Shown: one piece after another, positions 28 through 63,912 of the stretch
How the letters are laid out: every line of letters begins with the position of its first letter
How positions within the stretch are numbered: position 1 is the stretch's first letter
Source: Limnomonas spitsbergensis
Lineage: Eukaryota; Chlorophyta; Chlorophyceae; Chlamydomonadales
Direction of reading: 5' to 3'
NCBI GenBank assembly: GCA_037349105.1
Contig: JAYJMM010000028.1
Span: 2,728,001-2,792,000, forward strand
Length of the DNA stretch: 64,000 nucleotides
The notes under the pieces: generated by a model
Seen by the model: the letters and a program-made list of their open reading frames with translations, nothing else
Told to the model about the DNA's origin: nothing
Database searches by the model: none
Translations under genes and position numbers: made by a program

Positions 28-3000
28 GAGCTGGACAAGGGCAAGATGAGTGAGGATGACATCGACACGCGCCTCAAGTGGGTGGGCTTCTTCCACCGCC
101 GCAAGATCACCTACGGCCGCTTCTTCATGCGCACCAAGCTGGCCAACGGCATCCAGACCTCGGCACAGGTAATACCCAGCTGCCTGCCTGCCTGCCTGCC
201 CCGCCTGCTTTATGCGCACCAAGCCATGGCCAACGGCATCCAGACCTTGACACAGGTAATACCCTTTGTGTGGGTCTCCTGTATGCACTTGGACAAGCGA
301 TATAGCTTGCTGGCAGTGGAAGGGGCACGTTTTACGACGTCTAGTCTTCGCCTCCCCCCCCGCAGATTTGTCGTTTGGCATTTGTTTAGGGGCTTGCTTC
401 CCGGAACATAAGTGTCTTCCTGACCGTTCGCGAAGAGCTGATAAGAAACTTAATCCTTGTTGTGTTCACAAAAACAAATGCACTTTTCGAGTCCTCAACT
501 CTTTAGCATGCTCACTGTGATTCATCATGCCGTACCTCCTCACACCTGGGTAGGGAAGTAGACGCCCTCCTCACACCTGGGTAGGAAAGAAGACCCCGTC
601 CAGGGTAGTAGGTGGATCGGCGGCTGAAGGATGCCGTGATTGCCGTCCCACCTCACACCTGCTGAGAAGATCACACTCCCCCAACCTTTTACCCTAATAC
701 CTCCCCTGAGAGCAGGTTTGCTGCCTGGCCGATTGCGATGCACCCTGCAGCGACGGCTGATCTTGCCGTCCCTCCCCACACTTCCTTAATTTGTTTACCG
801 TAATACCTCCCCTGGGAGCAGTTCGCTGCCTGGCCGACATGATTGCGATGGCTGATCTTGCCGTCCCTCCCCACACCTCCTTAACCCTGCACCCTCAACC
901 TGAAGCCCTGCTGGTTAACACGTCTGCTGCCTGGCCGGTATGTCTTGCGATGCACCCTGCAACGACGGCTCATTTGCTGTCCCTCCCCAGTCCCCACGCT
1001 TACTGAGTATGTTTCTTAACCTGAACCCTGAACCCTCACACTAATCCCTCACCCTAAACCCTACTGAGCAGGTCCGCTGTCTGGCCGATATTGTGGCGAT
1101 GCACCCCGACGATGGCTGCGCTGACATCACAACGCGCCAGAACTGGCAGATCCGCGGCATGAAGAAGGAGGATATCCCCGGCATCCTTGCCCGCCTGAAG
1201 GCCGTCGGTCTCACGTCGCTGCAGACGGGGCTGGACAACCACAGGTAGGGGGTGCCAGGACGGCAGATGAGGCCCTGATCCCGTGGAGTTCACTAATCCG
1301 TTTAAAAGACAGTTCGCCCATTGTGTCCGTACGGTACAGGCATCCGTACCATACCGTTTGACCGCACCTCATTTTCACCCTTTCTCCAGGAACACGGTCG
1401 GCAACCCGCTGGCAGGCATTGACGCCGAGGAGATCATCGACACGTACCCCATCTGCCAGCTGATCGATCGCTACATCTTGAACGATGGCAAGGTGCGTGC
1501 TACGCTTGATAGGGTATTGAGATAGGGTATTGGCGCGGCCACCCTGCATGCTACAACTTCAACGATGACATGATACATCCTGAACAATGGGAATGAGGTG
1601 GATCCTAAGAACCAAATATCTTGAAGGAGGGCAAGGTGCGTGCTGTGCTTGATGGGGATGCGTGCCTAGCTCCCTCGAGCCCCCGCATTTCCACGCCTTG
1701 GAATGAATCGAAATTAAATCAATCAAAATCAGAATCATAAAAAAACTTTCTCCTTGCCCCCCCCATCCTCTCTCATTGTGTGATTTTGCGACTCCTCTTC
1801 GACCCCCTTCCTCTCATTTCCATTTAATAGATACACAAAATACTGCCCTCAGCCCACACTCCCGTTTCCACTCCTGGAAATCAATCAAATTCAGATGAAT
1901 AAAATCTCTTACCCTCTCTCCCATTTCCACTACCCTCAGGGCAACCCTGAGATAACCAACCTGCCTCGCAAGTGGAACGTGACGGTGGTCGGGACCCACG
2001 ACCTGTTCGAGCACCCACACATCAACGACCTGGCTTTTATGCCCGCCACCAAGGTGAGCTGCCCTTCCCTTGCTCCTAGGTAGGCTGCCCATGCTTAAAA
2101 CAGCCACCGAGGTTAATCGGGTTTTGTAACAGAAACATCGGGCCTCCCCCGGCCCCGGAACCGGACCCCCCCCCCCCCTGGGCCTGTTTGGGCACCCACA
2201 CATTAACAACCTGGCTGGCATGCCCGCCACCAAGGTGAGTTGCCCTGTCGCATACCTGCCACTGGGTTTTGGAACAGAAGAACCTGACCTCCTCCGATTC
2301 ATTCCAAGGTTCTCACAAAACTGCCCAGATCTGCTCAGGTCTTCAGAGATCTGCTCAGATCTGCTCTGTGATATCAAGTGGCTCAAGGAACTCCTGCTCC
2401 CTTTATTTGTAACCCCTAACTCCTAACCCTGAATCATCAACCCTTATCCCTAAACCATTGACCCTTAACACATCCAGGACGGTGTCATGGGCTTCAATGT
2501 GCTGGTGGGCGGCTTCTTCTCGGCAACGCGATGCGCTGAGGCCATCCCCATGGACGCCTGGGTGCCGGTCGACCAGGTGGTCGCCATGACGCACGCGACG
2601 CTGACGGCCTTCCGCGATTTTGGCGCCCGCGCCAGCCGCCAGAAGGCACGCATGATGTGGCTGATTGAGGATATGGGCATTGAGAAGTGGCGGGCAGAGA
2701 TCACTCGCCGGATGCCTGGCTTCACGCTGGTGAGGTGGGGTGGAGGAGGATGCTTCTGGGGTCCCTGGGTTGATGTGACGCTGGGTCGATTGAAATAGAT
2801 CAGGCACTGTGCGCCAGATGCCTGGCTTCACGCTGGTCAGGGGAGGTTGACGGTCATTATCATGCACAGCAGGTGCCCTTCCCACTGCCAGCCCACTACC
2901 CTTTCCTAGGCCTAATCAGCCCCCTCACTGCCACTGCCCCTTACTTGATGAGCAGGCGAGTGCCGGCATCATGCTACCCCCCTCACACACACTGCCTCTC

Positions 3001-6000
3001 ACTGCCACTGCCACTGCCACTGCCCTCCCTCCCGGCCATTATCAAGCACAGCAGGTGCCCTTCCCAGCCCCCCACCGCCCCTTCCCACGCCTAACCAGCC
3101 CCCCACTGCCCCTCCCCCACTGCCCCTCACTCGTTTAACAGGCGAGTGCTGGCATCGACCTGTGTGACCCCACTCGCAAGCGCCGCTCCCTCTTTGGCGT
3201 GCACGCACAGAAGCAGCCCGGCCTGAACTTCGTCGGCCTGAGCGTCCCAGTGGGGCGACTGGAGGCGCAGGACATGTACACCATTGCAGACCTGGCAGAC
3301 AAATATGGAAACGGTGAGGATGGGTGTGGGGGAGTTTGCTTTGTGACAGGGTGGGTGGGTGGGGAGAGTGTGACAGGGTGAATGTGAATGGTGGTGGATT
3401 TGCCTGTATGTGTGTTGGGGGTGGATGGCGAGTTGGTGGTGGTAAAAAGTGGTGGATGTGAATGGTGGTGGATGGTAGCCCACCTAGCTACACGGCCGAA
3501 CGGGTGGCTTCCTTGATCCACGCGCCTCATGGCATATCGTTTATTTATGATTGTGGATTTAATTGGTGGAAGCCAAGTCGGAAAAAGAGAAAACACTGAC
3601 TGGATCCACTGTCAGGTGAGATGTGGAGCAGAACTTTTTGCTGCCCGGTGTGTAGCTGACACGTGGCTGACATGTAGCTGAATCACAAAAAGACAACCGC
3701 TGACTGGCCTCTTAACCCTTCACCCTTCACCTGTGTGTGCCAGGTGAGGTCCGGCTGACCGTGGAGCAGAACTTCCTACTGCCTGGTGTGCCTGACGCCA
3801 AGGTGGCGGAGCTGCTGGCTGAGCCGCTGCTGCAGAAGTTCACGTGAGAGCGGATTTGTGTGTGGGGGGGTGGAGTGTGTGTGTGTGTTGACGAAGATAA
3901 TTTGTAAGGGGTGTGAGAAGGGATGTGTGTGTGCAGGGGGGTGCTTCTGTGCCTGCCGCCAAGGTGGAGGTGTTGGTGGCCAAACCGCTGCTGCAGAAGT
4001 TCATGTGAGGGGGGATGTGTCATATTTGTGGGGAGTGGGGGCGGGTGCTTCTGTGCCAGACCCCAAGGTGGCGGCGCTGCTGGCTGAGCAAAGCCAGTCA
4101 ATTAATGTAATTTCAGATTCAGAGCAACACTCCTAGATACGCTGCTTGAATGTGAAGGTACCTTGCGACTGACTTTCTGTAGGAGTGAATAGTTGTATGT
4201 TTGTGTTAAGTTGAGTTGTGTGTTTTACCAAGTTCCCATCCATGCGCCTGCCTGCCTGCAGCCCGACACCCGGCCGCATCATGTCTGGCCTCGTGTCATG
4301 CACTGGCAACCAGTTCTGCGGGTTCAGCAACATCGCCACTAAGGAGGAGGGCTGGAGGGTGAGAGAGAACTGGCCTAGGAGACGCATCCTGTAGATCTAA
4401 GATCTAGATGCAGATAGATTTTTGGATGAGGCCCCTCCGGCCAGCAGTCGGCGTGTAGCTGACATGTAGGTGAGTCTCAAAGAAAGAAACACTGTGTACT
4501 GTACAATCTGCACACTGCCAACAGGCATTTCAACTAGGCTTTACCTTGCTGCGGCTCCTCATCTTCCTGCTGCTCTACTGCTTCTGCTCCTGTTGCACCC
4601 CTTCCAGTGACTAAGCTCTGTGTTTTTTCTTGCCTGCCCCTGCTCCTGCTCTGCTGTGCCACTGCTGCACATACTGACCATGCCAAGAACTCGCGGTGTG
4701 CGCCACAGACAGACTTTCCTGTCCGCCTGACTAACGGTAGCTGGCCTCCACCCTCTTTCTCCCGTCTCTCTCCCCTCAGGTTGCGGAGCACCTCGAGAGT
4801 GTGTTGGACTTCCCCACGGACGTCCGCATGCACTGGACCGGCTGCCCCAACACCTGCGGGCAGGTCCAGGTCGGAGACATCGGCCTCCTTGGGACACAGG
4901 TGAGGCTTTAATTAAATCAAGCCCCCCGTCCACACCTACACCCGGCAGGCCATAGCTGACGAAGGGATATTCGTATATTCGCATGAAACGTGTGCATCCA
5001 TACCGTACTATCACTGCTAATTGGCATCCATTATGGTCTCAAAACATGAAACCACTATGGATAAAGTGGCCTTACAAATTAAGACGGTCGTACCAAACCT
5101 GGATAATCGTAAAAGTCGTATTTATTGCGAAAAAATGTGCTTTTAACGCGCTTTCTCCTCTAATTCAGGACGCACGCTATTAAGAGCATATATAATGATA
5201 TGAACAGATTCGTTGAAGTCTCCCTCGGCGGCAGGGGCCGGCATGGATCGGCAACTGCCACCCACAGAAAGCTTTACCACCTGTTTTCACCCGATAGCCG
5301 CGGTTGCGGTGCATGCCGTAAGAAGCAGCAGGTGGAGGCTATGAGGCAGCAGCAGCTTCAGAACAAGTAGTGCAGTGTGGGATGTGTGGTCCCCTTGTCT
5401 GAGATGGCTGTTTTTGACAAAACCAATTTTAAAATGATTTTGAGAGAAACCAAATTCGGGTTAAAAAAAAATCTTCATGCCTATGTTGGATATAAATAGG
5501 CTTCATTCAAGGCCAAGACATGGAACCAAAGCTAAAGAATACCAATTAGGAATGACGGTACGGTATCTACATCCCCAATCCACAGATTTCTTTTGCCATG
5601 CTTTAGAATAAACATTGTTTGGGGTTCAGGGATCCATGAATAAACCAATTACCGATTGTGAACGCCAGTTTGCTGTCAGAAATGAAGAGTTGTGGTGTCG
5701 ATAATCTGCGCTGTGGGTAGAGCAGTTAAAGAAATGTTTTTGATGCCCGAGGGATAAGGCAAAGCAAATCTGCGGTATATGAATGTCTCTGTCACCAATC
5801 AAGACACTTATGGCTGGCTGGCTGTTTTCTCTGACGTTATATTATTATGTACAACCCAGGGCAAATAAAGAACCTCGATAGACCAAGGGGAAGGTCCTGG
5901 GCGGTCAACATCACTGTTTGTTTCCTGACGGTATGACACCCTCAACCCTCAACCCTCAACCCCAAACCCTTAACTTAGGTTAAGAACCTCAACGGACCGG

Positions 6001-7828: not shown

Positions 7829-8029
7829 GCGGCAGTGGGACAGTGTGAACAAGATGGGATGCAGCGCCTAATAATAGCCAAGTCATAATGTAATTTTATG
7901 AAGTGTCAGTGACATGCCGCTACAGATATTGAGTATTTGAACTAGAATGTACTTTTAAACCAGCATGCGGGTTTGTGGTTTAGGTTTGTGTCACAGGATT
8001 CAAAAATGTGTTAACAAACCCCCTTCCCT
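7829..8029 (+). other. Presumed NIR 3' UTR / intergenic
   Basis: A/T-richer sequence follows the NIR stop codon. I see no ORF or repeat in it. The boundary at 8030 is where a terminal inverted repeat begins. Confidence 0.4.
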
Positions 8030-11470: not shown

Positions 11471-11546
11471 GTAAGAATGCTTTGAGTGATGCATCAGACA
11501 TTTCCCCTTCCATGCATGCTCCCATCTAGTGGTCCATGTCCTCCAG

Positions 11547-14959: not shown

Positions 14960-15007
14960 TTATAAACGTTCTGAACAAAAAGTTACTCCATGCTCATGTA
15001 CCTGCAG

Positions 15008-18499: not shown

Positions 18500-19800
18500 G
18501 CACCCACGTCATATTTTATGGCTGGGGCTAATCTTCTGCACTATGGGGTTCATTCCCACGCTACTGCTCGGTGGTTGTGTGTTGGTTGCTTGTCCAGGGG
18601 GGTCACTGGTTTTCGCTCGCTGTCCTAGCGTATCTACTGCCTGTACTGGTCTACGGGCACAAGTCCCATGCATCAAATGTGATGCCCCGTTGGACTGTAA
18701 AACTTCACAAACTTCACACTCCCTCGTCCTGGTGCGGCTCCTGGCATGAGTCAGCACAGCGCCCGCAGTGGTCTGAAACCTGGCGCGGTAGGTTACCACA
18801 GACCTGTGCTCAGTGGTAGGTTCCCTGGGGTCCTCCCCGCCGCTTGCGTCCAGCTACACCTGCTCGTAGGTTGCGTCAACGAGAGCCAACACCTCTGTGA
18901 CGGGTAGGCGCTGCAAGTCAGCTGCTGCCTCGCGCAATTTGGGGGCGGCTGCCCCCCGCTTCAGCTCCTCCAGTGCACACAGCAGATCAGAGCACCAGGT
19001 TTAGAACGGTGCATATCCAATGGGCTCTGCTGAACAGTCGGCCACGTGGGGCTGGTAGGGAATGACTAGGCTCAATTTCTGCTACCATGCACAGCCTGGG
19101 CCATGGTGCAGCCATGCCATCCTCCTATGTGAGGGGGCAGGAACATGGAACCCGGCGCTCTAGGCGGGGGGAGAGAGAAGATCGTGTGGCGGGTTCGATC
19201 CCTCAACCTCTGGGTATGGATGCCACCTGCCGGCGGGTGGTGCGGGTAGCCCCGCAGCCCGGCGCAATTGCTGAAGCAGGCAGGATTGCATCTCGTTATG
19301 GAGAAATTGCTTCGGCCGAAGGTGGCTGGTGGCCCACACCACGTCGCCGTAGTCGGCCGCAGGCGCTGCGTAACCAGCTGCCAACCTGATGCGTGTTGGT
19401 AGATGGTGTCTCAGGCTCACCTTGACGGCCATGAGGCGAACGCAGTGCAGCGCCGCAGCCAAAGGTGCCTCTCTCCCTTGCATGACCCTCCTCAAGCTGT
19501 TGCTTTCGTGCTGAATGATGCCCAAGAACTTGAATTTATGGACACGCTTCAGCGCGGCGCGGTCAGGGCCGTACACACACACATGGGCTAGCTGTCGGCG
19601 CTGCGCTGGTAGGCGGCTGCCAAACTCGATGATCTCTGTCTTGCTGACGTTGACCTGAAGCTGCTTATCCACCGCATACTCATGCAGGGCATCAAGCACG
19701 CGTTGCAGCCCTGCTGGGATGCGGGCTATCAGGGAGAGGTAGGCCACATACAGCAGGCAACACAGCTGTTGCCCCGCCTGTAGCGCAATGCCCTCTGCTG
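18500..19800 (-). pseudogene. LINE (non-LTR retrotransposon) reverse-transcriptase remnant
   Basis: On the - strand from about 19800 down: LQRVLDALHEYAVDKQLQVN, VSKTEIIEFGS, HKFKFLGIIQHES and MAVKVSLRHHLPTRIRLAAG are the post-palm and thumb features of LINE reverse transcriptases (the KTE and FKFLGI motifs). The YADD region is lost; the 5' side reads LLYVAYLSLIARIP. Further down (about 18848-18998) in another frame is DLLCALEELKRGAAAPKLRE, and at 18650-18720 a C-x2-C...H-x4-C (CEVC...SHLMHGTC) like the LINE C-terminal zinc knuckle. Frameshifts and stops separate these parts, so it is dead. Confidence 0.7.
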
Positions 19801-21523: not shown

Positions 21524-21564
21524 TGCGTCTTACCACACGCCCTCATCAAGCCAGTATGTCAATA

Positions 21565-45900: not shown

Positions 45901-48900
45901 CTCCACTCCCCTGCACCAATCCAGCACATTTCCCTCCACTCCCCTGCACCAATCCAGCACATTTCCCTCCACTCCCCCGCACCAATCCAGCACATTTCCC
46001 TCCACTCCCCTGCACCAATCCAGCACATTTCCCTCCACTCCCCTGCACCAATCCAGCACATTTCCCTCCACTCCCCTGCACCAATCCAGCACATTTCCCT
46101 CCACTCCCCCGCACCAATCCAGCACATTTCCCTCCACTCCCCTGCACCAATCCAGCACATTTCCCTCCACTCCCCTGCACCAATCCAGCACATTTCCCTC
46201 CACTCCCCTGCACCAATCCAGCACATTTCCCTCCACTCCCCTGCACCAATCCAGCACATTTCCCTCCACTCCCCTGCACCAATCCAGCACATTTCCCTCC
46301 ACTCCCCTGCACCAATCCAGCACATTTCCCTCCACTCCCCTGCACCAATCCAGCACATTTCCCTCCACTCCCCTGCACCAATCCAGCACATTTCCCTCCA
46401 CTCCCCTGCACCAATCCAGCACATTTCCCTCCACTCCCCTGCACCAATCCAGCACATTTCCCTCCACTCCCCTGCACCAATCCAGCACATTTCCCTCCAC
46501 TCCCCTGCACCAATCCAGCACATTTCCCTCCACTCCCCTGCACCAATCCAGCACATTTCCCTCCACTCCCCTGCACCAATCCAGCACATTTCCCTCCACT
46601 CCCCTGCACCAATCCAGCACATTTCCCTCCACTCCCCCGCACCAATCCAGCACATTTCCCTCCACTCCCCTGCACCAATCCAGCACATTTCCCTCCACTC
46701 CCCTGCACCAATCCAGCACATTTCCCTCCACTCCCCTGCACCAATCCAGCACATTTCCCTCCACTCCCCTGCACCAATCCAGCACATTTCCCTCCACTCC
46801 CCCGCGCACCAATCCAGCACATTTCCCTCCACTCCCCTGCACCAATCCAGCACATTTCCCTCCACTCCCCCGCACCAATCCAGCACATTTCCCTCCACTC
46901 CCCCGCACCAATCCAGCACATTTCCCTCCACTCCCCTGCACCAATCCAGCACATTTCCCTCCACTCCCCTGCACCAATCCAGCACATTTCCCTCCACTCC
47001 CCTGCACCAATCCAGCACATTTCCCTCCACTCCCCTGCACCAATCCAGCACATTTCCCTCCACTCCCCCGCACCAATCCAGCACATTTCCCTCCACTCCC
47101 CCGCACCAATCCAGCACATTTCCCTCCACTCCCCCGCACCAATCCAGCACATTTCCCTCCACTCCCCCGCACCAATCCAGCACATTTCCCTCCACTCCCC
47201 CGCACCAATCCAGCACATTTCCCTCCACTCCCCCGCACCAATCCAGCACATTTCCCTCCACTCCCCTGCACCAATCCAGCACATTTCCCTCCACTCCCCT
47301 GCACCAATCCAGCACATTTCCCTCCACTCCCCTGCACCAATCCAGCACATTTCCCTCCACTCCCCCGCACCAATCCAGCACATTTCCCTCCACTCCCCTG
47401 CACCAATCCAGCACATTTCCCTCCACACCCCCGCACCAATCCAGCACATTTCCCTCCACTCCCCTGCACCAATCCAGCACATTTCCCTCCACTCCCCTGC
47501 ACCAATCCAGCACATTTCCCTCCACTCCCCTGCACCAATCCAGCACATTTCCCTCCACTCCCCTGCACCAATCCAGCACATTTCCCTCCACTCCCCCGCA
47601 CCAATCCAGCACATTTCCCTCCACTCCCCTGCACCAATCCAGCACATTTCCCTCCACTCCCCTGCACCAATCCAGCACATTTCCCTCCACTCCCCTGCAC
47701 CAATCCAGCACATTTCCCTCCACTCCCCTGCACCAATCCAGCACATTTCCCTCCACTCCCCTGCACCAATCCAGCACATTTCCCTCCACTCCCCTGCACC
47801 AATCCAGCACATTTCCCTCCACTCCCCCGCACCAATCCAGCACATTTCCCTCCACTCCCCTGCACCAATCCAGCACATTTCCCTCCACTCCCCCGCACCA
47901 ATCCAGCACATTTCCCTCCACTCCCCTGCACCAATCCAGCACATTTCCCTCCACTCCCCTGCACCAATCCAGCACATTTCCCTCCACTCCCCCGCACCAA
48001 TCCAGCACATTTCCCTCCACTCCCCCGCACCAATCCAGCACATTTCCCTCCACTCCCCTGCACCAATCCAGCACATTTCCCTCCACTCCCCTGCACCAAT
48101 CCAGCACATTTCCCTCCACTCCCCCGCACCAATCCAGCACATTTCCCTCCACTCCCCTGCACCAATCCAGCACATTTCCCTCCACTCCCCTGCACCAATC
48201 CAGCACATTTCCCTCCACTCCCCTGCACCAATCCAGCACATTTCCCTCCACTCCCCTGCACCAATCCAGCACATTTCCCTCCACTCCCCCGCACCAATCC
48301 AGCACATTTCCCTCCACTCCCCTGCACCAATCCAGCACATTTCCCTCCACTCCCCCGCACCAATCCAGCACATTTCCCTCCACTCCCCCGCACCAATCCA
48401 GCACATTTCCCTCCACTCCCCTGCACCAATCCAGCACATTTCCCTCCACTCCCCTGCACCAATCCAGCACATTTCCCTCCACTCCCCTGCACCAATCCAG
48501 CACATTTCCCTCCACTCCCCTGCACCAATCCAGCACATTTCCCTCCACTCCCCTGCACCAATCCAGCACATTTCCCTCCACTCCCCTGCACCAATCCAGC
48601 ACATTTCCCTCCACTCCCCTGCACCAATCCAGCACATTTCCCTCCACTCCCCTGCACCAATCCAGCACATTTCCCTCCACTCCCCTGCACCAATCCAGCA
48701 CATTTCCCTCCACTCCCCCGCACCAATCCAGCACATTTCCCTCCACTCCCCTGCACCAATCCAGCACATTTCCCTCCACTCCCCCGCACCAATCCAGCAC
48801 ATTTCCCTCCACTCCCCTGCACCAATCCAGCACATTTCCCTCCACTCCCCTGCACCAATCCAGCACATTTCCCTCCACTCCCCCGCACCAATCCAGCACA

Positions 48901-51900
48901 TTTCCCTCCACTCCCCCGCACCAATCCAGCACATTTCCCTCCACTCCCCTGCACCAATCCAGCACATTTCCCTCCACTCCCCTGCACCAATCCAGCACAT
49001 TTCCCTCCACTCCCCCGCACCAATCCAGCACATTTCCCTCCACTCCCCTGCACCAATCCAGCACATTTCCCTCCACTCCCCTGCACCAATCCAGCACATT
49101 TCCCTCCACTCCCCTGCACCAATCCAGCACATTTCCCTCCACTCCCCTGCACCAATCCAGCACATTTCCCTCCACTCCCCCGCACCAATCCAGCACATTT
49201 CCCTCCACTCCCCTGCACCAATCCAGCACATTTCCCTCCACTCCCCCGCACCAATCCAGCACATTTCCCTCCACTCCCCCGCACCAATCCAGCACATTTC
49301 CCTCCACTCCCCTGCACCAATCCAGCACATTTCCCTCCACTCCCCTGCACCAATCCAGCACATTTCCCTCCACTCCCCTGCACCAATCCAGCACATTTCC
49401 CTCCACTCCCCTGCACCAATCCAGCACATTTCCCTCCACTCCCCTGCACCAATCCAGCACATTTCCCTCCACTCCCCCGCACCAATCCAGCACATTTCCC
49501 TCCACTCCCCTGCACCAATCCAGCACATTTCCCTCCACTCCCCTGCACCAATCCAGCACATTTCCCTCCACTCCCCTGCACCAATCCAGCACATTTCCCT
49601 CCACTCCCCTGCACCAATCCAGCACATTTCCCTCCACTCCCCTGCACCAATCCAGCACATTTCCCTCCACTCCCCCGCACCAATCCAGCACATTTCCCTC
49701 CACTCCCCTGCACCAATCCAGCACATTTCCCTCCACTCCCCTGCACCAATCCAGCACATTTCCCTCCACTCCCCTGCACCAATCCAGCACATTTCCCTCC
49801 ACTCCCCTGCACCAATCCAGCACATTTCCCTCCACTCCCCCGCACCAATCCAGCACATTTCCCTCCACTCCCCTGCACCAATCCAGCACATTTCCCTCCA
49901 CTCCCCCGCACCAATCCAGCACATTTCCCTCCACTCCCCCGCACCAATCCAGCACATTTCCCTCCACTCCCCTGCACCAATCCAGCACATTTCCCTCCAC
50001 TCCCCTGCACCAATCCAGCACATTTCCCTCCACTCCCCTGCACCAATCCAGCACATTTCCCTCCACTCCCCTGCACCAATCCAGCACATTTCCCTCCACT
50101 CCCCTGCACCAATCCAGCACATTTCCCTCCACTCCCCTGCACCAATCCAGCACATTTCCCTCCACTCCCCTGCACCAATCCAGCACATTTCCCTCCACTC
50201 CCCTGCACCAATCCAGCACATTTCCCTCCACTCCCCTGCACCAATCCAGCACATTTCCCTCCACTCCCCCGCACCAATCCAGCACATTTCCCTCCACTCC
50301 CCTGCACCAATCCAGCACATTTCCCTCCACTCCCCCGCACCAATCCAGCACATTTCCCTCCACTCCCCTGCACCAATCCAGCACATTTCCCTCCACTCCC
50401 CTGCACCAATCCAGCACATTTCCCTCCACTCCCCCGCACCAATCCAGCACATTTCCCTCCACTCCCCCGCACCAATCCAGCACATTTCCCTCCACTCCCC
50501 TGCACCAATCCAGCACATTTCCCTCCACTCCCCTGCACCAATCCAGCACATTTCCCTCCACTCCCCCGCACCAATCCAGCACATTTCCCTCCACTCCCCT
50601 GCACCAATCCAGCACATTTCCCTCCACTCCCCTGCACCAATCCAGCACATTTCCCTCCACTCCCCTGCACCAATCCAGCACATTTCCCTCCACTCCCCTG
50701 CACCAATCCAGCACATTTCCCTCCACTCCCCCGCACCAATCCAGCACATTTCCCTCCACTCCCCTGCACCAATCCAGCACATTTCCCTCCACTCCCCCGC
50801 ACCAATCCAGCACATTTCCCTCCACTCCCCCGCACCAATCCAGCACATTTCCCTCCACTCCCCTGCACCAATCCAGCACATTTCCCTCCACTCCCCTGCA
50901 CCAATCCAGCACATTTCCCTCCACTCCCCTGCACCAATCCAGCACATTTCCCTCCACTCCCCTGCACCAATCCAGCACATTTCCCTCCACTCCCCTGCAC
51001 CAATCCAGCACATTTCCCTCCACTCCCCCGCACCAATCCAGCACATTTCCCTCCACTCCCCTGCACCAATCCAGCACATTTCCCTCCACTCCCCTGCACC
51101 AATCCAGCACATTTCCCTCCACTCCCCTGCACCAATCCAGCACATTTCCCTCCACTCCCCTGCACCAATCCAGCACATTTCCCTCCACTCCCCTGCACCA
51201 ATCCAGCACATTTCCCTCCACTCCCCCGCACCAATCCAGCACATTTCCCTCCACTCCCCTGCACCAATCCAGCACATTTCCCTCCACTCCCCTGCACCAA
51301 TCCAGCACATTTCCCTCCACTCCCCTGCACCAATCCAGCACATTTCCCTCCACTCCCCTGCACCAATCCAGCACATTTCCCTCCACTCCCCCGCACCAAT
51401 CCAGCACATTTCCCTCCACTCCCCTGCACCAATCCAGCACATTTCCCTCCACTCCCCTGCACCAATCCAGCACATTTCCCTCCACTCCCCTGCACCAATC
51501 CAGCACATTTCCCTCCACTCCCCCGCACCAATCCAGCACATTTCCCTCCACTCCCCTGCACCAATCCAGCACATTTCCCTCCACTCCCCTGCACCAATCC
51601 AGCACATTTCCCTCCACTCCCCTGCACCAATCCAGCACATTTCCCTCCACTCCCCTGCACCAATCCAGCACATTTCCCTCCACTCCCCTGCACCAATCCA
51701 GCACATTTCCCTCCACTCCCCCGCACCAATCCAGCACATTTCCCTCCACTCCCCCGCACCAATCCAGCACATTTCCCTCCACTCCCCTGCACCAATCCAG
51801 CACATTTCCCTCCACTCCCCTGCACCAATCCAGCACATTTCCCTCCACTCCCCCGCACCAATCCAGCACATTTCCCTCCACTCCCCTGCACCAATCCAGC

Positions 51901-54900
51901 ACATTTCCCTCCACTCCCCTGCACCAATCCAGCACATTTCCCTCCACTCCCCTGCACCAATCCAGCACATTTCCCTCCACTCCCCTGCACCAATCCAGCA
52001 CATTTCCCTCCACTCCCCTGCACCAATCCAGCACATTTCCCTCCACTCCCCCGCACCAATCCAGCACATTTCCCTCCACTCCCCTGCACCAATCCAGCAC
52101 ATTTCCCTCCACTCCCCTGCACCAATCCAGCACATTTCCCTCCACTCCCCTGCACCAATCCAGCACATTTCCCTCCACTCCCCCGCACCAATCCAGCACA
52201 TTTCCCTCCACTCCCCTGCACCAATCCAGCACATTTCCCTCCACTCCCCTGCACCAATCCAGCACATTTCCCTCCACTCCCCCGCACCAATCCAGCACAT
52301 TTCCCTCCACTCCCCCGCACCAATCCAGCACATTTCCCTCCACTCCCCTGCACCAATCCAGCACATTTCCATCCACTCCCCCGCACCAATCCAGCACATT
52401 TCCCTCCACTCCCCCGCACCAATCCAGCACATTTCCCTCCACTCCCCTGCACCAATCCAGCACATTTCCCTCCACTCCCCTGCACCAATCCAGCACATTT
52501 CCCTCCACTCCCCCGCACCAATCCAGCACATTTCCCTCCACTCCCCTGCACCAATCCAGCACATTTCCCTCCACTCCCCTGCACCAATCCAGCACATTTC
52601 CCTCCACTCCCCCGCACCAATCCAGCACATTTCCCTCCACTCCCCTGCACCAATCCAGCACATTTCCCTCCACTCCCCTGCACCAATCCAGCACATTTCC
52701 CTCCACTCCCCTGCACCAATCCAGCACATTTCCCTCCACTCCCCTGCACCAATCCAGCACATTTCCCTCCACTCCCCCGCACCAATCCAGCACATTTCCC
52801 TCCACTCCCCCGCACCAATCCAGCACATTTCCCTCCACTCCCCTGCACCAATCCAGCACATTTCCCTCCACTCCCCTGCACCAATCCAGCACATTTCCCT
52901 CCACTCCCCTGCACCAATCCAGCACATTTCCCTCCACTCCCCTGCACCAATCCAGCACATTTCCCTCCACTCCCCCGCACCAATCCAGCACATTTCCCTC
53001 CACTCCCCTGCACCAATCCAGCACATTTCCCTCCACTCCCCCGCACCAATCCAGCACATTTCCCTCCACTCCCCTGCACCAATCCAGCACATTTCCCTCC
53101 ACTCCCCTGCACCAATCCAGCACATTTCCCTCCACTCCCCTGCACCAATCCAGCACATTTCCCTCCACTCCCCCGCACCAATCCAGCACATTTCCCTCCA
53201 CTCCCCCGCACCAATCCAGCACATTTCCCTCCACTCCCCTGCACCAATCCAGCACATTTCCCTCCACTCCCCTGCACCAATCCAGCACATTTCCCTCCAC
53301 TCCCCTGCACCAATCCAGCACATTTCCCTCCACTCCCCCGCACCAATCCAGCACATTTCCCTCCACTCCCCCGCACCAATCCAGCACATTTCCCTCCACT
53401 CCCCTGCACCAATCCAGCACATTTCCCTCCACTCCCCTGCACCAATCCAGCACATTTCCCTCCACTCCCCTGCACCAATCCAGCACATTTCCCTCCACTC
53501 CCCCGCACCAATCCAGCACATTTCCCTCCACTCCCCCGCACCAATCCAGCACATTTCCCTCCACTCCCCCGCACCAATCCAGCACATTTCCCTCCACTCC
53601 CCTGCACCAATCCAGCACATTTCCCTCCACTCCCCTGCACCAATCCAGCACATTTCCCTCCACTCCCCCGCACCAATCCAGCACATTTCCCCCCACTCCC
53701 CTGCACCAATCCAGCACATTTCCCTCCACTCCCCTGCACCAATCCAGCACATTTCCCTCCACTCCCCTGCACCAATCCAGCACATTTCCCTCCACTCCCC
53801 TGCACCAATCCAGCACATTTCCCTCCACTCCCCTGCACCAATCCAGCACATTTCCCTCCACTCCCCTGCACCAATCCAGCACATTTCCCTCCACTCCCCT
53901 GCACCAATCCAGCACATTTCCCTCCACTCCCCTGCACCAATCCAGCACATTTCCCTCCACTCCCCTGCACCAATCCAGCACATTTCCCTCCACTCCCCTG
54001 CACCAATCCAGCACATTTCCCTCCACTCCCCTGCACCAATCCAGCACATTTCCCTCCACTCCCCTGCACCAATCCAGCACATTTCCCTCCACTCCCCCGC
54101 ACCAATCCAGCACATTTCCCTCCACTCCCCCGCACCAATCCAGCACATTTCCCTCCACTCCCCTGCACCAATCCAGCACATTTCCCTCCACTCCCCTGCA
54201 CCAATCCAGCACATTTCCCTCCACTCCCCTGCACCAATCCAGCACATTTCCCTCCACTCCCCTGCACCAATCCAGCACATTTCCCTCCACTCCCCCCACC
54301 AATCCAGCACATTTCCCTCCACTCCCCTGCACCAATCCAGCACATTTCCCTCCACTCCCCTGCACCAATCCAGCACATTTCCCTCCACTCCCCCGCACCA
54401 ATCCAGCACATTTCCCTCCACTCCCCTGCACCAATCCAGCACATTTCCCTCCACTCCCCCGCACCAATCCAGCACATTTCCCCCCACTCCCCTGCACCAA
54501 TCCAGCACATTTCCCTCCACTCCCCTGCACCAATCCAGCACATTTCCCTCCACTCCCCTGCACCAATCCAGCACATTTCCCTCCACTCCCCTGCACCAAT
54601 CCAGCACATTTCCCTCCACTCCCCTGCACCAATCCAGCACATTTCCCTCCACTCCCCTGCACCAATCCAGCACATTTCCCTCCACTCCCCTGCACCAATC
54701 CAGCACATTTCCCTCCACTCCCCCGCATTATAATCTAGGCTCACCTGAATTTTAACAGCGGCGACCACTGCCGGGGGCGCAGGCTTTGCATTCTCCCCCT
54801 TCCCACATAGGTGCCCGAGGAAGTAATCCTAAACCACATAAGGAGAGGTGGGAGGAATAAGGTAACCGAAGGTAACAGGCGGCAACAGAAGGTAACCGAA

Positions 54901-57900
54901 GGTAACAGGAAGGCAACAAAAGGAAAATCTACAGGGTCGTTAGGGCAAGAAGCGTAATTTTCCCCATCCTGGCCTTTCCTTTCCTCCTCCCCCTCCCTTC
55001 CCCTCCTGGCTGGGATGAGAGAGTGTACCTTGAGCATGCCCTTGGCCGTGGCAGAGTGAAGTCCCTCCCCTCCCTCCCTCCCCTCCCTCTTTCTCCCTCC
55101 CTTCCACTCCCTCCCTCTCCCTCCCTCCCACTCCCTCCCTCTCCCTCCCTCCCACCCTCCAATCATAGCACACCTTGAGCATGCCCTTAGCCTTGGCAGA
55201 GTGGATGGCGTTGAAGTCCTCGGTCGCATCCATGCCCGCAGAAATCAAGATAGAGTCGGCGCCTGCAGAGAGAGGGGGGGGGGGGGCAGCAAGCACACAC
55301 CCAGGTTGCGTGTCTTTCACAAGCCTGGAAAGTGGTCATGCACCCTATCAATCTTCAAAAGTGGTCATGCACCCGAGTGATGCACACGTGGTCAGTCGTG
55401 TCTTTTACAAGCCCTTTGGCCCTTTTGGTATCGATGCAGAAGGTGGGTTCAGAGGGCTGAAGAGCTGGGTTTCGGCAAACACTCACCCCCCGGATGGTCT
55501 TCCAGGAACCGCGTGGCATCGTAGACACTGCCCTCGTACACAAACCACGCGCTCTCCTCCGTGCTATGCTCGGCCACCTCCTCCATGGTAAACGTCTTCT
55601 CGCTGCCATCCGTCTGTTTAGGGGTTAAGGTCCAGGGGTCAGGGTTTAGGGTTGGGAATAGGGTTTAGGTTCAGGGCTTATGGGGTGCCCTCCTCCGTGC
55701 TGTGCTCAACCATCTCCAGGGCCATTCTTGCTGTCATCTGTCTCGTTCAAGGCATGAGACAGGCAGGGGTTCAGGGCCCAGGGTCCAGATCGTAAGGTAT
55801 TAAACCCTCAATAACGATTCATGACTGGAGCTCTCACGTGTGGCTGAGGAACCGGGCAACCCAGGAGAGACAACGCCCGGTGGAGCGATGCTTTTTTTCA
55901 GCGTTACTTTTCAAAGAAACATTTTTTCAGAGTTACTTGGTCACTGACTGCGGGTTTTCCAGAGTTACTTTTTCTGGCTGCAAATCTACCCACAGACCAG
56001 CAGCCGCCAAAGGCCTGATTGTGATCAGCGTACAGTGGGCCGCCAAAGCAGTGCAGGGCCACAAAGCCTCTGGGTCTCTGTCCACGGTGGCCGGAGTGTA
56101 GCAGACATGTCGCGCAGTCGAGGAAAAATAAACATTTCCCCCAGTGGGAAGGACATCAATATCTCCCATCACCTATTCACGTCTACTGTGGCCCCGGAGG
56201 CCGGGGTGTAGCTCACATGTAGCTGAGGCATGTAGCTGATTCAAAACAAGTGTGGGCAAAACAATCTCCCATCATCGATATCCCACCTTGACAACTGCAT
56301 GCTTGTCTGTCCCAGCTCAGACTCGAGGCCGACAAACTCCCATCTGTCGATATCTCCCACCTTGACGACTGCACTAGCCTGAGGCACCACCACTCCTCCC
56401 AGCTTGGCCGCCTGCAGTGCCTGCTCCGGGAGGTTGCCCTCCTCCCACTTTTGAGGCACCGCCATTTTCCAATTAACCCTCAACACTCACCTTCACCACT
56501 GCAACTGCCTGAGGCACCACCATCCCCCCTGGCTTGGCAGCCTGCAGCGCCTGCTCCCGAAGGTTGTCCTCCTCCCGCCACCCGATATGACCCAGGGTGC
56601 CCACTTCCACCGGGGCCGGGTGCTGGAAGCGGAGCACCATCTTGCCGCTGGCATCCCTCTCGGGAAGAATCTTGATCCTGGGATGCAGGTGAGAGGTGAG
56701 AGGTGAAAGGGCAGTGTAACGAGGGACCTCCAATAGGGCTGGGAGCTGGAAGCGGAGCACCATCTTGCCGCTGGCGTCCCTCTCCGGAAGACTCTTGATC
56801 CTGGGATGCAGGTGAGAGGTGAAAGGTGAAAGGGCTGTGTAACGAGGGACCTCCAACAGGGCCGGATGCTGGAGGTGGAGCACCATCGTGCCGCTTGCAT
56901 CCCAGGGTGGCAGGTGACAGGTGGCAAGTGGCAAATGATGTGGCAAATAACAGGTGGCATTTGGCATGTTGAGGTGAGAGGGGAGCATCTTTGGTTGCCG
57001 GCTGCATGTTCATGGTCATGTCCCACATGTACTACCTGTCCCACATGTACTGCCTCACCTGTGGTAGCAGTTGTTCATCATGCCCATAAGGTTCCAGGTG
57101 ATGGCGGCCGGCTGCGTGTTCATGGTCTCGTCCCACGCACGCAGCAGCAGCTCCTTCGATTGGAGGAAGTCAAACGTCTGGACCTCGATCTCGAAGAAGA
57201 CCCAGCACCAGTGCTTGGCTGCGAATGAGGGGAGGGGGTGGGAGGGACGGCGCAGGTCAGGCAGGCAAGGAGGAGGGCTGTGTGTGCATAGTCTTATCCC
57301 ATGCACGCAGAAGCAGCAGTAGCAGCAGCTCCTTGGATTGGAGAAGTCAATCGTCTAGACCTCCATATCGAAGAAGACCCAACACCAGTGCTTGGCTGCC
57401 AGTGTGTGTGGGGGGGGGGAGGGGGGGGTAGGCAGGCAAGGTGGAGGGTTCATACTGGATACCTCGATCTCGAAACTAGGCCTGCATCCGTGCTTGGCTG
57501 CGGGTGACGGCAAGGCACAGAGCAGGCAGGGGGGAGGGGAGACGGTCAGCGTTAGGCTGCGAGAGGGGGGTGCAGAATAGGGCCGACATGCCAAGAGACA
57601 CAGCATATGCTCTTGGCATGCCCTTACCAATTTCTTCGTCGTTGTATGTGAGAGAAACTCCTCACCAAATGCGTTGGGCTCCTCAAACCACTCAATCTCT
57701 GCAAATACTACCTACTTACACCACATCCATCACCTCCATCACTTCCATCATTCCACCACCTCCATCACTTCTACATACGGATAAACCATACTATGATACC
57801 GTATTAGCGCCACCATAGAGGGTTGGAAGAGGAAGCTGCCACCATAGAAAATTAAAAGGGACCAGGGTCACCCAGTATGAAAGTACGGCACGGTGAAACG

Positions 57901-60900
57901 GTACGGACAAACGGTGCAGCTACGGTACAGCAAAAATGGTCAGACTAGAAAGGAATGGCCGTGATAAGGTGTCTTACCGTAGGCATTGGGCTTCTCGAAG
58001 CGCTTAATCTCTGCCAGCCTCCACGACTGGCCGTCATCTAGGGAGATCTCCACTCGAATGATCTTCTGTCCATTTCCTGCAGGGCCACATGAAACCGTAA
58101 ATGAATAAAAATTGACAAAAAAGTGCGTGGATTTATTTTTTGATGCCCATTGCCTGTAGGGCCACATTTAGAGAGGAGAACAAAGGGTCGGTAATGGAGG
58201 CTTGTCCACACCAAAGATACGAGGCTTCTCAAATTTTGACCACGTGGAAGGGAATGACAAAGGGTCGGTAATTGAGGCTTGGCGGCCGTTTCGACTAGAG
58301 CCACAAAAAATCACAAAAACATAAATTTGCGCAAATGAGTATTATATCAACAGATTGAAAAAGCCGCCCGTCGCCAGTGCCATAGATGTGCCCATTAAGT
58401 TGCATTATGATGTGCACATGACCGTAGCTTGTACGACTTTCTCTTGTTATGATGGTAACGGCGCGGACGCGGCCTAGGCCCATGCCGCCCTGTTTCCTAA
58501 ACCCTCATGCCCTGCCGGGCGTAGTTTTCGTTATTTCATGTGCCTATGATGCCCTGATATACCCAAGGATGTGATGCTCGATATGCACATAAGATATTCC
58601 TAAGTGATGCCCCGTGAGGGGGGGAAGATGGGGGAGGGTGGGGGTCGACATGGTAGTGGCGCATACGATGTCACGCTGACATCAAGTCTTTGATGCCAAA
58701 TTGTGACGTTGAATCCGTTGCGTCACAAGGCGCCACCCCTCATATGATGGCCCATAACGCATATCTCTTGACGATGTCCGTAGCCAGGGACTGCACCTCA
58801 TGATGCCATTGTACCCCTGGTGTCCCACAAACAGACTACTTTGTTTGTTGCCTTTTACCTGCATTCGCATATCCCTTGGCGATGTACACCTGGTCCGTTG
58901 CCAGGGACAACACCTCAACGTGCCACAGCACACCTACACACAGCCCTCGTGTTCTACCACTGACAATTTGTGTGTGTGTGTTGTTCTTTACCTGCATACG
59001 CATACCCCTTAACGATGTAGGCCTCATCCGTTGCCAGGGACAGGACCTCATCATGCCACGGCCTGGCCACCGCGCTGTTGATGTTCAGGTTGTTGATGAT
59101 GTAGTCCGGCTTGTACCACCAACCTGCATGGAGATGCATGTGGCGTCATGAGGCTACGAGGGGAGGCATGGGGATGCATGGGGCGTCATGCGGCTGCGAG
59201 GGAATGCATAGGGAGTCCTGAGGCTGCGAGGGGATGCACGGGAATGCATGAGGCGTCATGGGGCTGCGAGGGAATGCATGGGGATGCATGGGGCGTCATG
59301 AGGCTATAAGGGTATGCATGGGGATGCATGGGGCGTCATGAGGCTGCGAGGGGATGCATGGGGATGCATGGGGCGTCATGAGGCTATAAGGGTATGCATG
59401 GGGCGTCATGAGGCTGCGAGGGGATGCATGGGGATGCATAGGGCGTCATGAGGCTGCGAGGGGATGCATGGGGACGCATGGGGCGTCAGGAGGCTGCGAG
59501 GGGATGCATGGGGATGCATAGGGCGTCATGAGGCTGCAAGGGGATGCATGGAGGGGGGGGGTCAGAGTGAAACGGCCTGAGGCTGCATGGGGCTGCATGG
59601 GGATAGATTAGGCTGCATGGGGCTGCGTGAGGCGTCCCAGTGCAAATACCTCAAAACTCCATGACTGTTGAGCTATTATCTGCCCTCATTGTTCTCCCTT
59701 GTGCCACCAACCAGGCGAATGCACAGCCACCACCCAGGCAAAGGGACAGAAAAGTGTGGGTGGAGGCATAAACAACATCTGGATAATTTGATGGGAGATG
59801 GGCATCAAGGGATGTATGGGATCTATGGGGTCATGAGATCTAAGAGATCTGTGGGACTGAAGGCCCAACCTTCAGATAATGCCAGCACTACCTGGATCCG
59901 ATGTCCCTTCTTATTCATCTTACGTACAGGTATTAATTAAATTATTGAACTCATATATCTAACTTTATTTAACTTATTTACGTAACTTGTTTACTGAACT
60001 TACTTGTTCAAGTTATTTATGTAACCTATAAACGGACTTATCTATTGAACTTCTGTATTTAACACGTTTTTTTACCGTAGATTTGATTTGCCTTCCCTCG
60101 GGTATCAATTAATTATTTCTTTTAATGCTGCCCTCGGGGCAAAAACAGTTGTTTAATGCTGCCCTCGGGGCAGATTTTTTTGTTTGATCCGTTCCCTCGG
60201 CACCGAAAATCGCTTAAGAGCAGTGTTAAAAGCCTCACAGCTGCCATGTATTTCATCCAGTTCAGCACTAAAATCAGCAGAGAAAAAATCATCGAGGCAC
60301 ACTCAACAACACTGATGACCCTCAACATGGTGCCGGTACAACATGCAAGCCTCCAATCGATGTCTTTGTAGATATAGTACCGGCACTACTCGAAACAAAT
60401 GAGTTCAAGGCTTGCACTTAACTGAGTGGCTGCCCTTGAGGACACACTAAGAGCACCCCTTGCCCTTAAGCACTGTGCTTTCTCACGCCCCTCGGACAGT
60501 GCTTTCTCACGCCCCCCTCAGACACTGCTCTGAGCCCCTGTGTATCTAGCTCTTTCAACAGCCAACCCTCCATTACGCGTGCCCTTTCGTAAGCAGTGGG
60601 TGTTGGCCCCAGCCCAGGCTCCTCAGCCATCATGAAGGCTGGGTCCATGTCAAGCTGGGGACACGATCCCCAAGGGAGCATATCAGATGAGAGATCGAAA
60701 CCATATCACATGACATCGAAATAAGAACGCATGTCAGAAGAGAGATCGAAAGAAGAGGGCTGACCAGATGAGAGATCGAAACCAGAAGGCCATCACAAGA
60801 CATCGAAATAAGAACGCATGTCAGAAGAGAGATCGAAAGAAGAGGGCTGACCAGATGAGAGATCGAAACCAGAAGGCCATCACATGAGCTCGAAATAAGA

Positions 60901-63900
60901 ACACATGTCAGAAGAGAGATCGAAAGAAGAGGGCTGACCAGGTGAGAGATCCAAACAAGAAGGCCATCACATGAGATCGTAATAAGAACACATGTCAGAA
61001 GAGCCAGAGATCGAAATGAGAGGGCTGACCAGGTGAGAGATCGAAATCAGAAGGCCATCACATGAGATCGAAATAAGAACCCAGGTCTGAAGAGAGATCG
61101 AAATAAGAAAGCAGACCCTGTGACACTTAAGCAATCACGCTAGACCTTGAACGTGCAGCCTCTTTACGAACGAACAGCGCTTGAAAGCTCAGCTCTATCT
61201 TGTACCGGTACGTGAAAAATGCGGTACCCGTTGTACCAGACGTCGAATGGTACGTTATAAACGAACGGCGACAGGCGGTCGCGACAGGGGCCTCGAGGAC
61301 AGCGATTTTCGATCTGATTAATATTTAAATATTCGCGCCCCTCACCCCAAATAATGAATATTTGATGTATCTCTCGGGCATAACCCTCACCCCCAAACAA
61401 CATTAATTATGAGGGAAGGCTAACCGAATCTACGGTACTCTTGTTTATTTTTATTTTTTTATTTTTTATTTTTGACCCCCCCCCCTCTCCCCCTCCCTAT
61501 GTATTTATCTAATCTATTCATTAATTATAGTTAGATGACATCCCCCCCCCTCTCACCCTCTGCCGCGGCCATCTCCTCGTTGACGTGCGAGGGAATGACC
61601 CGATTGTCCAAGTAGTGGTAGAAGTTCACACTTTCCTTCTCCGTCACTGTGATCTCCTCTAGCCACTTGACCATGCGGCCGCCAATAAAGCCCGGGATGA
61701 TGATGCGGACGGGGAAGCCATGGTCGGGGGTCAGCCAGCGGCCGTTCTGCTTGTAGGCGATGATGACATCCGAAGCAGGGTCCATGGCCTGGTGGTAGGT
61801 AATAGGGGGGTAGGTTTGAGGGTTTAGGATGCAATACTTGGTGGTAGGTAATAGTATGGTCAGGGTTTGGGATTTAGGGTTTAGGGGTAAGGGCTTATGG
61901 GTTCAATGTTCAGGGATAAGGGGTAAGGGTTAAACGCCAACCCTACCCATAAACCCTAACCCGAAACCTTAACTAGGATGCGAACGTAGGCAAGACAAAC
62001 AAAGAAGGAACGGTCAAGAGGAAAGAAAAGTTTGACTAACACAAAAAGTGTGATGCCACGTATCTCTCCAAGACGGGCCAGGCATGACGCGATGATTGCC
62101 TCGGGGACGCAGTAGACTCTAAGAGCGCTATACCTTCATCCGCCAAACCCTGAAAAACCTACCCAAAATCTGAGGCACTTGGGCTACTGACGACGTTCGT
62201 AACCACAAACCCTAACCCTTAAACACACACACCTTGTGGTAGGCGACCGATGTCCCGTAGGAGCCGTCAGCCCCCTTGGGCAGCTCTCCCTTGGGGCCTC
62301 GAAATGACACGTAGTGTGCACCCTCTTCAGGAGTCTGCAACGGGTTGAGGGTTGAGAGTTTACAATTAAGACTTAGGGTTTAGGGCTACGAGTTTAGGGT
62401 TTCGGGTTTTGGGGCGGCAGGAGGGCTGGGCTGCGGAGGTAGGAGCAGTTGAATTCCAGGTGTATCCACCTTTGGGAGGCCGAGTTTAGGGTCAAGGGTT
62501 TTATCCACGTTGGGCAGGCCCCGCCCCGCAGACACCATAGGCCCGATTGGGACCTAACCTGGACCGTCATACTGTTGGCCGCCAAAGCAGCATGGCTGGC
62601 CACAAATGGGGCCTCCGGCCAGATGTGGCAAATGGGGCCTCCAGCCAGTTTCAGTCAAAAGATCCGGAAAGTTTGTGTCCATGTTTGGCCCAAGGGTTTA
62701 GGGTTTAGGGTCCAGGGCATCATGACAATCTCAGTACTGTACATTTGAAAAGAGCCCTCCATCACCCCCAGGAAATAAAATTGTTTATGAAGCCCTACGC
62801 AGGGGGACCTTTTTCTAATTGTGTATTCATTTCCTGCAGGGGCTGGATCAATTGTTTATTAGATCAAGCACACTGCAAGATTCCGACCGATGCCAAACGA
62901 TTCTCACAGATTACGCCAGGGTCGTCATCGCGCATCCCTCAACCACACCTTAACCCCAACCTCTAAACCCTACACCCTATCGTGCACCCCTTGGAAACAA
63001 CGTGTTTACGCAAAGGCAATCAGAAAGTTGCGCATAGGCGCATAGGCGCAACTTTCGGCATTTCCATAGCGTGTGCTTCTGATTCAGTTCAATTAAAGAT
63101 CAATCATACTTAGGGTCTACATATCTTCCTGGGATCTCTACATGGGATCTACATGGGATCTAAAAACCTATTAAGGGAGGGTGATTCAAATCTACAGCAA
63201 GGGTGACGTGCGTGTATGACCACGTTCACACCTCAATGGCAGCGTGCAGCACGGGGTCCCCCAGGTTCGCAGAATGGAGTATTCAGCTACCAGAGTTGAG
63301 CTACTGCGAGGAATGCAATCGGCACAGCACTGATGTGAAAGCACCTTGATGCTGGATCTGCCTACGACTGGTGGCATGGCTGGCCTCGAGTAGGGCCGAC
63401 GGACAGGGGCCGGAGTGTAGCTGATATATAGCTGACATGTAGCTGAGACAGACATGTAGCTGAGGCATGTAACTCAGACATGCAGCTGAGGCATATAGCT
63501 GAGGCACGTAGCTGAGACATGTAGCTGACATGCAGCTGAAGTATACCTGAGACATGTAGCTGAGACATGTGGCTGAGGTATGTTGCTGGAACATGCAGCT
63601 CAGACATGTAGCTGACATGTAGCTGAGATATAAGGAAGAAAAATCGCTTCACCTTGATGCCGGCATGCAGCATCAGGTCCCGCAGCCGCACGCCCGTCTA
63701 GCTGGTGCTGACAGCGCACGAGCTGCCCCCGTTACCCCCCCCACACACACACTCACCCTCCCCCCCCCCCCCCAACACACACACACAAAGAGGTGCTTCA
63801 CCTTGATGCCGGCGTGCAGCATCAGGTCCCGCAGCCGCACACCCGTCCAGTAGCTGGTGCTGACAGCGCACGGGCCCCAGTTAAAGCCGATGCTTTTCTT

Positions 63901-63912: not shown

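Follow-up and report, generated by a model that had tools for sequence, protein, structure and literature searches.

Exon-edge copies in the introns of a green alga and their probable origin in recurrent local tandem duplication

The window analysed here, a stretch of 64,000 nucleotides from a 260-Mb green algal genome in 124 contigs, carries the genes for nitrite reductase (NIR, plus strand) and nitrate reductase (NR, minus strand), and raises the question of why edges of their exons recur in the adjoining introns. An earlier note had suggested that the copies could be due either to intron growth by short tandem duplication anchored at splice junctions or to a pool of decoy or alternative splice sites. 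Based on self-comparison of these genes and of a wider sample, we consider it probable that introns here grow by recurrent short local tandem duplication, that some of the duplicated units cross junctions, and that the copies then drift neutrally.

Copies at the edges of the two nitrate-assimilation genes

Gene models were obtained with a purpose-written protein-to-genome spliced aligner that permitted only GT-AG or GC-AG introns, which gave 15 NIR and 18 NR exons with GT at 31 of 31 donors. One NR donor edge modelled at 56485 is probably better placed at 56491, the position given in the earlier note, because GTGAGT comes directly after 56491. The C-terminal part of NIR (5979-7825) continues into rubredoxin and NADH-cytochrome b5 reductase-like domains, and the three best matches to NIR, which are 74-78% identical and full-length or nearly so, likewise contain the reductase domains. 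Among the listed matches that carry an organism name, NIR came closest to Chlamydomonas sp. UWO241 (70%) and NR to C. eustigma (72%), and transcript-derived proteins reached up to 78% to NIR.

A local copy in the intron concerned was found for 20 of the 21 exon edges listed by the earlier note, exon-only matches being taken at a score threshold of 17 (controls were run at a stricter 20). In NIR, eight of nine named edges were confirmed by self-comparison: edges 168, 2053, 2729, 3843, 1072 and 3744 through exon-only matches within their own intron, and edges 1492 and 3142 through matches spanning the junction. Edge 1072 scored 18 and had a gapped match as well, while the gapped alignment of the edge 168 copy comprises 49 exon and 9 intron columns. 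The copy claimed for edge 5979 was not recovered, no match being present in its own intron even at threshold 17. Five dinucleotide shuffles of the NIR region yielded 0 matches at score 20 and the real region yielded 152, a 46-bp array in NIR intron 1 being the source of 24 of the 43 listed among them. The NIR features are as follows.

28..168, plus strand: NIR exon 3, whose end (source 120-177) is copied at 205-264
205..264, plus strand: intronic copy of donor edge 168 (60 columns, 90%)
672..1117, plus strand: imperfect repeat reaching and crossing the NIR exon 4 acceptor at 1072 (672-970 vs 777-1117; 673-759 vs 1032-1118)
1618..1657, plus strand: intronic copy of donor edge 1492 (source 1475-1514; 40 nt, 88%)
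2176..2246, plus strand: intronic copy of donor edge 2053 (source 1995-2065; 71 nt, 85%)
2812..2850, plus strand: intronic copy of donor edge 2729 (source 2706-2744; 39 nt, 87%)
2851..2970, plus strand: intronic copy of acceptor edge 3142, at a lag of about 182 bp from its source (3033-3156)
3623..3681, plus strand: intronic copy of the NIR exon 9 start (source 3761-3822, acceptor 3744; 64 columns, 73%)
3948..4089, plus strand: two intronic copies of donor edge 3843 (source 3787-3888), at 3948-4054 and 4052-4089

All 12 named NR edges were matched, several of them two to four times (63802, 58992, 57978, 57218, 56677, 56491, 55613, 55174, 39678, 39424, 38935 and 36755), the weakest being 57978 (score 20, 34 nt, 79%). 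Copies were also present at edges 57059 and 36848, absent from the earlier list, and the donor-side exon edge at 54745 had no match in the compared stretch of intron 13.

63643..63726 (approximate; lag 149-152), minus strand: intronic copy of donor edge 63802 (74 exon columns at 96%, plus 7 intron columns)
58757..58808, minus strand: intronic copy matching NR exon 7 (donor 58992; source 59058-58998), with a further copy at lag 133
57461..57515, minus strand: intronic match to the NR exon 9 start (source 57236-57182, acceptor 57218), one of four matches, some of which are pieces of one indel-split copy
56606..56903, minus strand: 123-bp unit in 2.4 copies across acceptor 56677 (TRF; two matches)
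55687..55784, minus strand: intronic copy of acceptor edge 55613 (source 55652-55551; self-comparison)
54963..55058, minus strand: intronic copy of donor edge 55174 (source 55203-55109; self-comparison)
39880..54727, minus strand: 33-bp minisatellite of 450 copies in NR intron 13 (TRF)
39281..39342, minus strand: intronic copy of donor edge 39424 (source 39479-39419; 62 columns, 89%)
38999..39182, minus strand: repeated intronic copies of acceptor edge 38935 (three pairs; four matches)
37008..37079, minus strand: intronic copy of acceptor edge 36848 (source 36895-36825; self-comparison)

The minisatellite in intron 13, 14.8 kb long with 98% matches among its units, is the extreme of repeat-driven intron growth in a region that is rich in repeats (80 TRF rows). 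It holds very long open frames on both strands. A 33-bp period is common to the separate arrays at 21684-23572, 32131-32719, 32960-33743 and 39880-54727, whose units look alike by eye with a CCCTCCACTC-like core, and this suggests a dispersed minisatellite family. An open frame at 19163-19819 (minus strand) resembles a reverse transcriptase fragment, judging from the look of its translation only.

Spread, decay and structure of the copies

The wider sample consisted of 16 dynein heavy chain loci, a single gene family, with 250 kb of genome fetched altogether. Weakly supported dynein exons were removed (19 of 48 in C86a, for example), and introns were retained where the exon edges on both sides were well supported, which reduced 223 introns between trusted exons to 172, and to 171 after removal of one longer than 5 kb. 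After addition of three extended loci, 195 introns passed identical filters, of which 194 were used in the cross-intron control; codon, splice-site and gapped-alignment results refer to the set of 171. Runs of equal-length 'introns' in C109 and C39 are, we think, the aligner threading through tandem arrays.

With a junction-type copy defined as a pair in which one copy includes at least 8 exonic nucleotides and the other lies within the intron, such copies were found in 97 of the 195 introns of NIR, NR and the 16 dynein genes, on the donor side in 68, on the acceptor side in 51 and on both in 22. The pattern extends beyond the nitrate genes, junction copies being present in 17 of 18 genes (the exception, C122, has 0 in 9 introns), and it is unevenly spread, C86a having 3 junction families in 14 introns. 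In the cross-intron control (exon flanks of at most 120 nt, score 20), donor-side exon edges matched their own intron in 53 of 194 cases and an intron of another gene in 2, with 0 matches to their own intron in inverted orientation; the corresponding figures for acceptor-side edges were 34, 1 and 0 of 194, and those for both sides pooled 87, 3 and 0 of 388. The copies are thus direct and close together, neither dispersed nor inverted, as local tandem duplication requires.

Introns with junction copies are longer than those without (median 588 bp vs 390 bp, p = 2.5e-7), keeping in mind that longer introns also give more room for finding a copy, and self-similar segments of any period make up 46% of intron bases. 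The proposal of intron growth by short tandem duplication is supported by these observations, the copies being local, direct and partly head-to-tail, and the introns that bear them longer. The dynein genes have 105 distinct intron positions, of which 21 are common to at least two paralogues and one is common to 13. At 17 of the 21 common positions a copy is present in some paralogues and none is found in others; in those cases the intron predates the copy, and duplication followed later and more than once. Two dynein loci, C75a and C29 (L006, L017), share segments that are 81-94% identical and are by appearance recent paralogues; the junctions copied are not the same in the two, so that their introns could serve to date events.

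The mismatches in 106 junction pairs fall unequally on the codon positions of the exon, with 157/1487, 147/1491 and 309/1490 (10.6, 9.9 and 20.7%) at positions 1, 2 and 3. Such a pattern is expected when a dead copy drifts evenly and the functional exon itself changes mostly at position 3, and it fits copies that are dead, in neutral drift against a constrained exon. Exon-part identities span 0.67 to 1.00, in keeping with the view of the earlier note that the process is both ongoing and old; gapped identities of about 0.6-0.65 are no evidence of homology. GT was intact in 44 of 56 copied donors (0.76 expected from overall identity) and AG in 32 of 39 copied acceptors (0.78 expected). Retention above expectation, which the earlier note had proposed to look for, was thus not seen, and since survival is close to the neutral rate, the copied sites are not clearly preserved and not clearly purged.

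Intact copies have scores a little below those of the genuine sites (4.28 vs 5.10 for donors, 2.53 vs 3.94 for acceptors), and the real site is strictly stronger at 16 of 40 donors and 13 of 24 acceptors, ties being counted as not stronger. The junction lags are not biased towards multiples of three (33/31/29 by remainder), and splicing at an intact copy would cause a frameshift or stop in 57 of 64 cases. We infer that the exon-proximal site is the one in use, provided that the homology-based models are right.

Internal structure was examined in 93 junction pairs of low copy number whose lag was at least 55 bp. The alignment covers 0.8-1.25 of the lag in 20 pairs and more in 14, head-to-tail counts that are upper bounds as the scoring may extend through unrelated sequence, and it covers less than 0.8 in the remaining 59. 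In the 20 full units the exon fraction ranges from 0.15 to 0.81 with a mean of 0.51. The exon part of tandem-like units is 83% identical and the intron part 75%, as would be expected if both intron copies drift and only one exon copy does. Matched blocks continue beyond the junction into the intron in 66 of 80 cases, which makes copying from spliced mRNA unlikely. Lag and exon length are uncorrelated (rho -0.02, n = 93), so that duplication of whole exons is not the general case.

In some cases one splice site has been copied in succession, as in C92 (a 41-bp unit in about six copies ending in CAG followed by GTGGGTGATCTTTGAC) and C120 (an array of a 52-bp unit). At L011:2058-2699 (minus strand) a dynein acceptor stands at the end of an array of about six 41-bp units. 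Every unit contains an almost identical acceptor together with the opening 16 nt of the exon, which makes the locus well suited to testing acceptor choice. At L019:5994-7143 (plus strand) a 52-bp array places about a dozen copies with near-identical acceptors ahead of the real one.

Placement of duplications and competing explanations

Because the introns are short (median 444 bp, first set), duplications placed uniformly would often cross junctions. After short-period repeats had been masked and split pairs merged, 66 of 89 simple events were junction-type vs 33.9 ± 4.5 under uniform placement. By our own argument, a pair with one frozen copy would decay at half speed, so that the visible number would be at most doubled in steady state; 66 of 89 also lies above this doubled expectation (48.8 ± 4.6, z 3.7), and for all events 101 of 133 were junction-type vs 75.5 ± 5.6 at the doubled figure. 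Some of the junction excess is not explained by slower decay of exon-templated pairs. The excess was pronounced at lags of 80-160 bp (47 of 55 events vs 21.3 uniform and 30.7 doubled, summed), the lags of junction pairs having their peak at 100-140 bp, in contrast to intron-only pairs, of whose 133 lags 107 are below 100 bp. Without merging, 105 of 147 masked pairs were junction-type vs 57.1 ± 5.8 (odds ratio 3.9, flat with identity), and at identity of at least 0.9 the count was 24 of 33 vs 12.0 ± 2.7, the excess there not being limited to old pairs.

The identity distribution of the 89 simple events has its peak at 0.80-0.90, where 48 of them fall, with 16 at 0.90 or above. Among the merged events of identity at least 0.9, 11 of 16 were junction-type vs 5.8 ± 1.9 uniform and 8.5 ± 2.0 doubled, and at identity of at least 0.93 the figures were 8 of 13 vs 4.6 ± 1.7 and 6.7 ± 1.8; the youngest events are therefore above uniform placement but not clearly above the doubled figure. 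The two genes of the window alone gave 13 of 22 vs 12.5 at the doubled expectation, and short-period repeats (lag 20-45) showed no bias, with 16 of 93 at junctions vs 13.8.

Counts by sequence window agree with this picture in part. In masked windows of introns of at least 550 bp, exon edges took part in pairs in 52 of 142 cases and the second to fourth intron windows in 56 of 301 (summed), a ratio of about 2. The corresponding ratio was 0.88-1.09 when uniform duplication was simulated. Detection bias in simulations also stayed below the doubling allowed for above, at 0.87-1.49 in steady state; a bias of 1.85-5.40 appeared in only three of ten settings, all with old events. Masked 60-nt windows (introns of at least 350 bp) gave 0.34 for donor and 0.25 for acceptor exon edges, vs 0.20/0.28 (donor/acceptor) in the first and 0.19/0.16 in the second intron window. 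With masking, matched opportunity and identity of at least 0.9, no exon-edge excess was seen (exon edges 10/144 and 6/141; first intron windows 5/106 and 6/98; second 8/114 and 6/95, these intron windows also including copy-to-copy pairs from arrays that touch an exon). Unmasked 80-nt windows likewise showed none, at donors (exon edge 50/124 vs intron 54/124 and 40/124) or at acceptors (42/124 vs 57/124 and 50/124), because minisatellite fills the intron windows. In a family-level enrichment against an unmasked uniform null the odds ratio was 2.7-2.9 overall, rising to as much as 9.1 at lags of 110-160; the largest values were not relied on because intron-only pairs can be absorbed into short-period families (short-period repeats occupy 29.5% of intron bases vs 0.6% of exon flanks) and indel-split pairs are counted repeatedly.

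As these placement measures disagree in part, a genuine moderate junction hotspot is put forward here as a possibility only. The residual excess could instead reflect a rate of duplication that was higher in the past, or the disappearance of young copies that were still nearly identical. Of the claim that duplication is anchored at splice junctions, what stands is the surplus of junction events over both the uniform and the doubled expectation; the youngest events do not clearly surpass the latter, and the junction may lie anywhere within full head-to-tail units.

Cumulatively, we favour as the probable explanation recurrent short local tandem duplication, in which units mostly of about 60-200 bp, besides shorter-period minisatellites, would have breakpoints within introns or the exon sequence flanking them. 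When such a unit spans a splice junction, the intron would receive a copy of the exon edge with its splice site; splicing would continue at the exon-proximal site, leaving the protein unchanged, and the new copy would drift neutrally. The duplicating event may have been, for example, staggered-break fill-in with end joining, or replication slippage. Exon edges would be conspicuous because the template exon is under purifying selection, which keeps the pair recognisable for longer than an intron-intron pair.

A different account holds that exon edges or boundaries are true hotspots, with introns growing preferentially from their ends, owing to breaks, nicks or stalled replication connected with exons, with nucleosomes or with transcription coupled to splicing. 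The excess over both expectations, its concentration at lags of 80-160 bp, the differing lag distributions and the surplus over uniform placement at identity of at least 0.9 argue for it. However, the youngest bins, the high-identity and unmasked windows, the two nitrate genes on their own, the variable place of the junction in tandem units and the unbiased short-period repeats all argue against it, and we hold it to be unlikely. Templated insertion in end joining, by which exon-edge pieces and filler rather than head-to-tail units would be copied into the intron, has a bearing on spacers: 46 of 63 lack significant homology to the matching flank (17 of 63 have it at p ≤ 0.05; some of these contain exon sequence, and a few rows represent one event). 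Loss of spacer homology is expected in old copies because constraint is limited to exon and splice signal. Among young donor rows 10 of 13 end 2-16 nt beyond the junction, several with a non-matching spacer, and the spacer shows no detectable homology in young copies at C123b (45/45 identical), NIR 168 and NR 39424. An unrelated spacer in a young copy is unexpected for simple tandem duplication, and these few are possibly templated insertions. As a general account this is nevertheless quite improbable, given the 17 homologous spacers and the 34 of 93 pairs that align over at least 0.8 of the lag; templated insertions are also expected to include inverted ones, but inverted copies numbered 0 of 388.

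That selection maintains the copies as decoy or alternative sites we regard as hardly credible: intact copies do score close to real sites, which are strictly stronger in only a part of the cases, but GT and AG persist at about the neutral rate, the codon pattern is that of a dead copy, lags ignore the reading frame, and use of a copy would mostly disrupt it. Just as little credence attaches to assembly artefact or chance low-complexity similarity. The region is indeed rich in repeats, yet shuffled sequence gave no match, introns of other genes gave 3 of 388, the copies recur in 17 of 18 genes, and diverged copies with a codon-position pattern are beyond any assembler. As regards introner elements, for which related copies would be inserted at many loci, the comparison covered exon edges, 3 of 388 of which matched an intron of another gene.

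Significance and comparison with known systems

With recurrent local duplication as the preferred reading, roughly every second intron examined preserves a datable trace of a duplication, and selection still acts on the template. How often tandem duplication occurs, how long its units are, how fast they decay and how much they contribute to intron length can therefore be read directly. The copies also leave introns with anything from two to many splice sites of almost equal quality (64 intact copies scored here; arrays of about six or more elsewhere), most of which, if used, would wreck the protein, so that exon-proximal choice by the spliceosome becomes testable with ordinary RNA-seq. For annotation this calls for caution, as homology-based gene finders can pick the wrong copy in such genomes. 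A further-reaching reading, in which junctions in this lineage are real hotspots for duplications of 80-160 bp, introns grow mainly from their ends, and the build-up of intact, near-equal intronic sites beside an exon-proximal one that is still used makes the genome a large natural experiment in splice-site choice by exon proximity, we put forward as unlikely.

Natural insertions in rice have reportedly been treated by Vaughn and Bennetzen in 2014. We class the present case as ordinary events at a frequency that may be unusual; in the open-licence PMC literature we found no description of a genome with dead exon-edge copies in about half of the examined introns. Small tandem duplications are an established type of mutation, for which repair pathways such as break fill-in with end joining are known (PMC8355091). 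There as here the copies are local and direct, and they are head-to-tail, like a part of ours; the short insertions of that paper are below 100 bp, whereas the modal lag of our junction copies is 100-140 bp. Tandem duplication has also been proposed as the source of introns that are new or have changed position (PMC2891723; PMC3443670). In the potato RdRp gene a single tandem duplication across an intron-exon boundary is reported (PMC4974935), an event identical in type to that seen many times here, but there it created a new intron, whereas here the copies sit within introns already present (21 of 105 dynein positions being common to paralogues), making them longer, and recur across genes. 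Intron sliding and tandem duplication near intron pairs in Drosophila (PMC2891723) similarly tie exon-sequence duplication to introns in conserved genes; that work deals with shifted or new intron positions in 31 genes, in contrast to the repeated dead intronic copies found here. Direct repeats near splice sites (PMC11782384) share with our copies their location at intron-exon borders. Those are repeats of 4-30 bp, seen when an intron's two borders are compared and interpreted as scars of insertion, whereas in the introns described here tens of nucleotides of one edge are repeated close by within its own intron.
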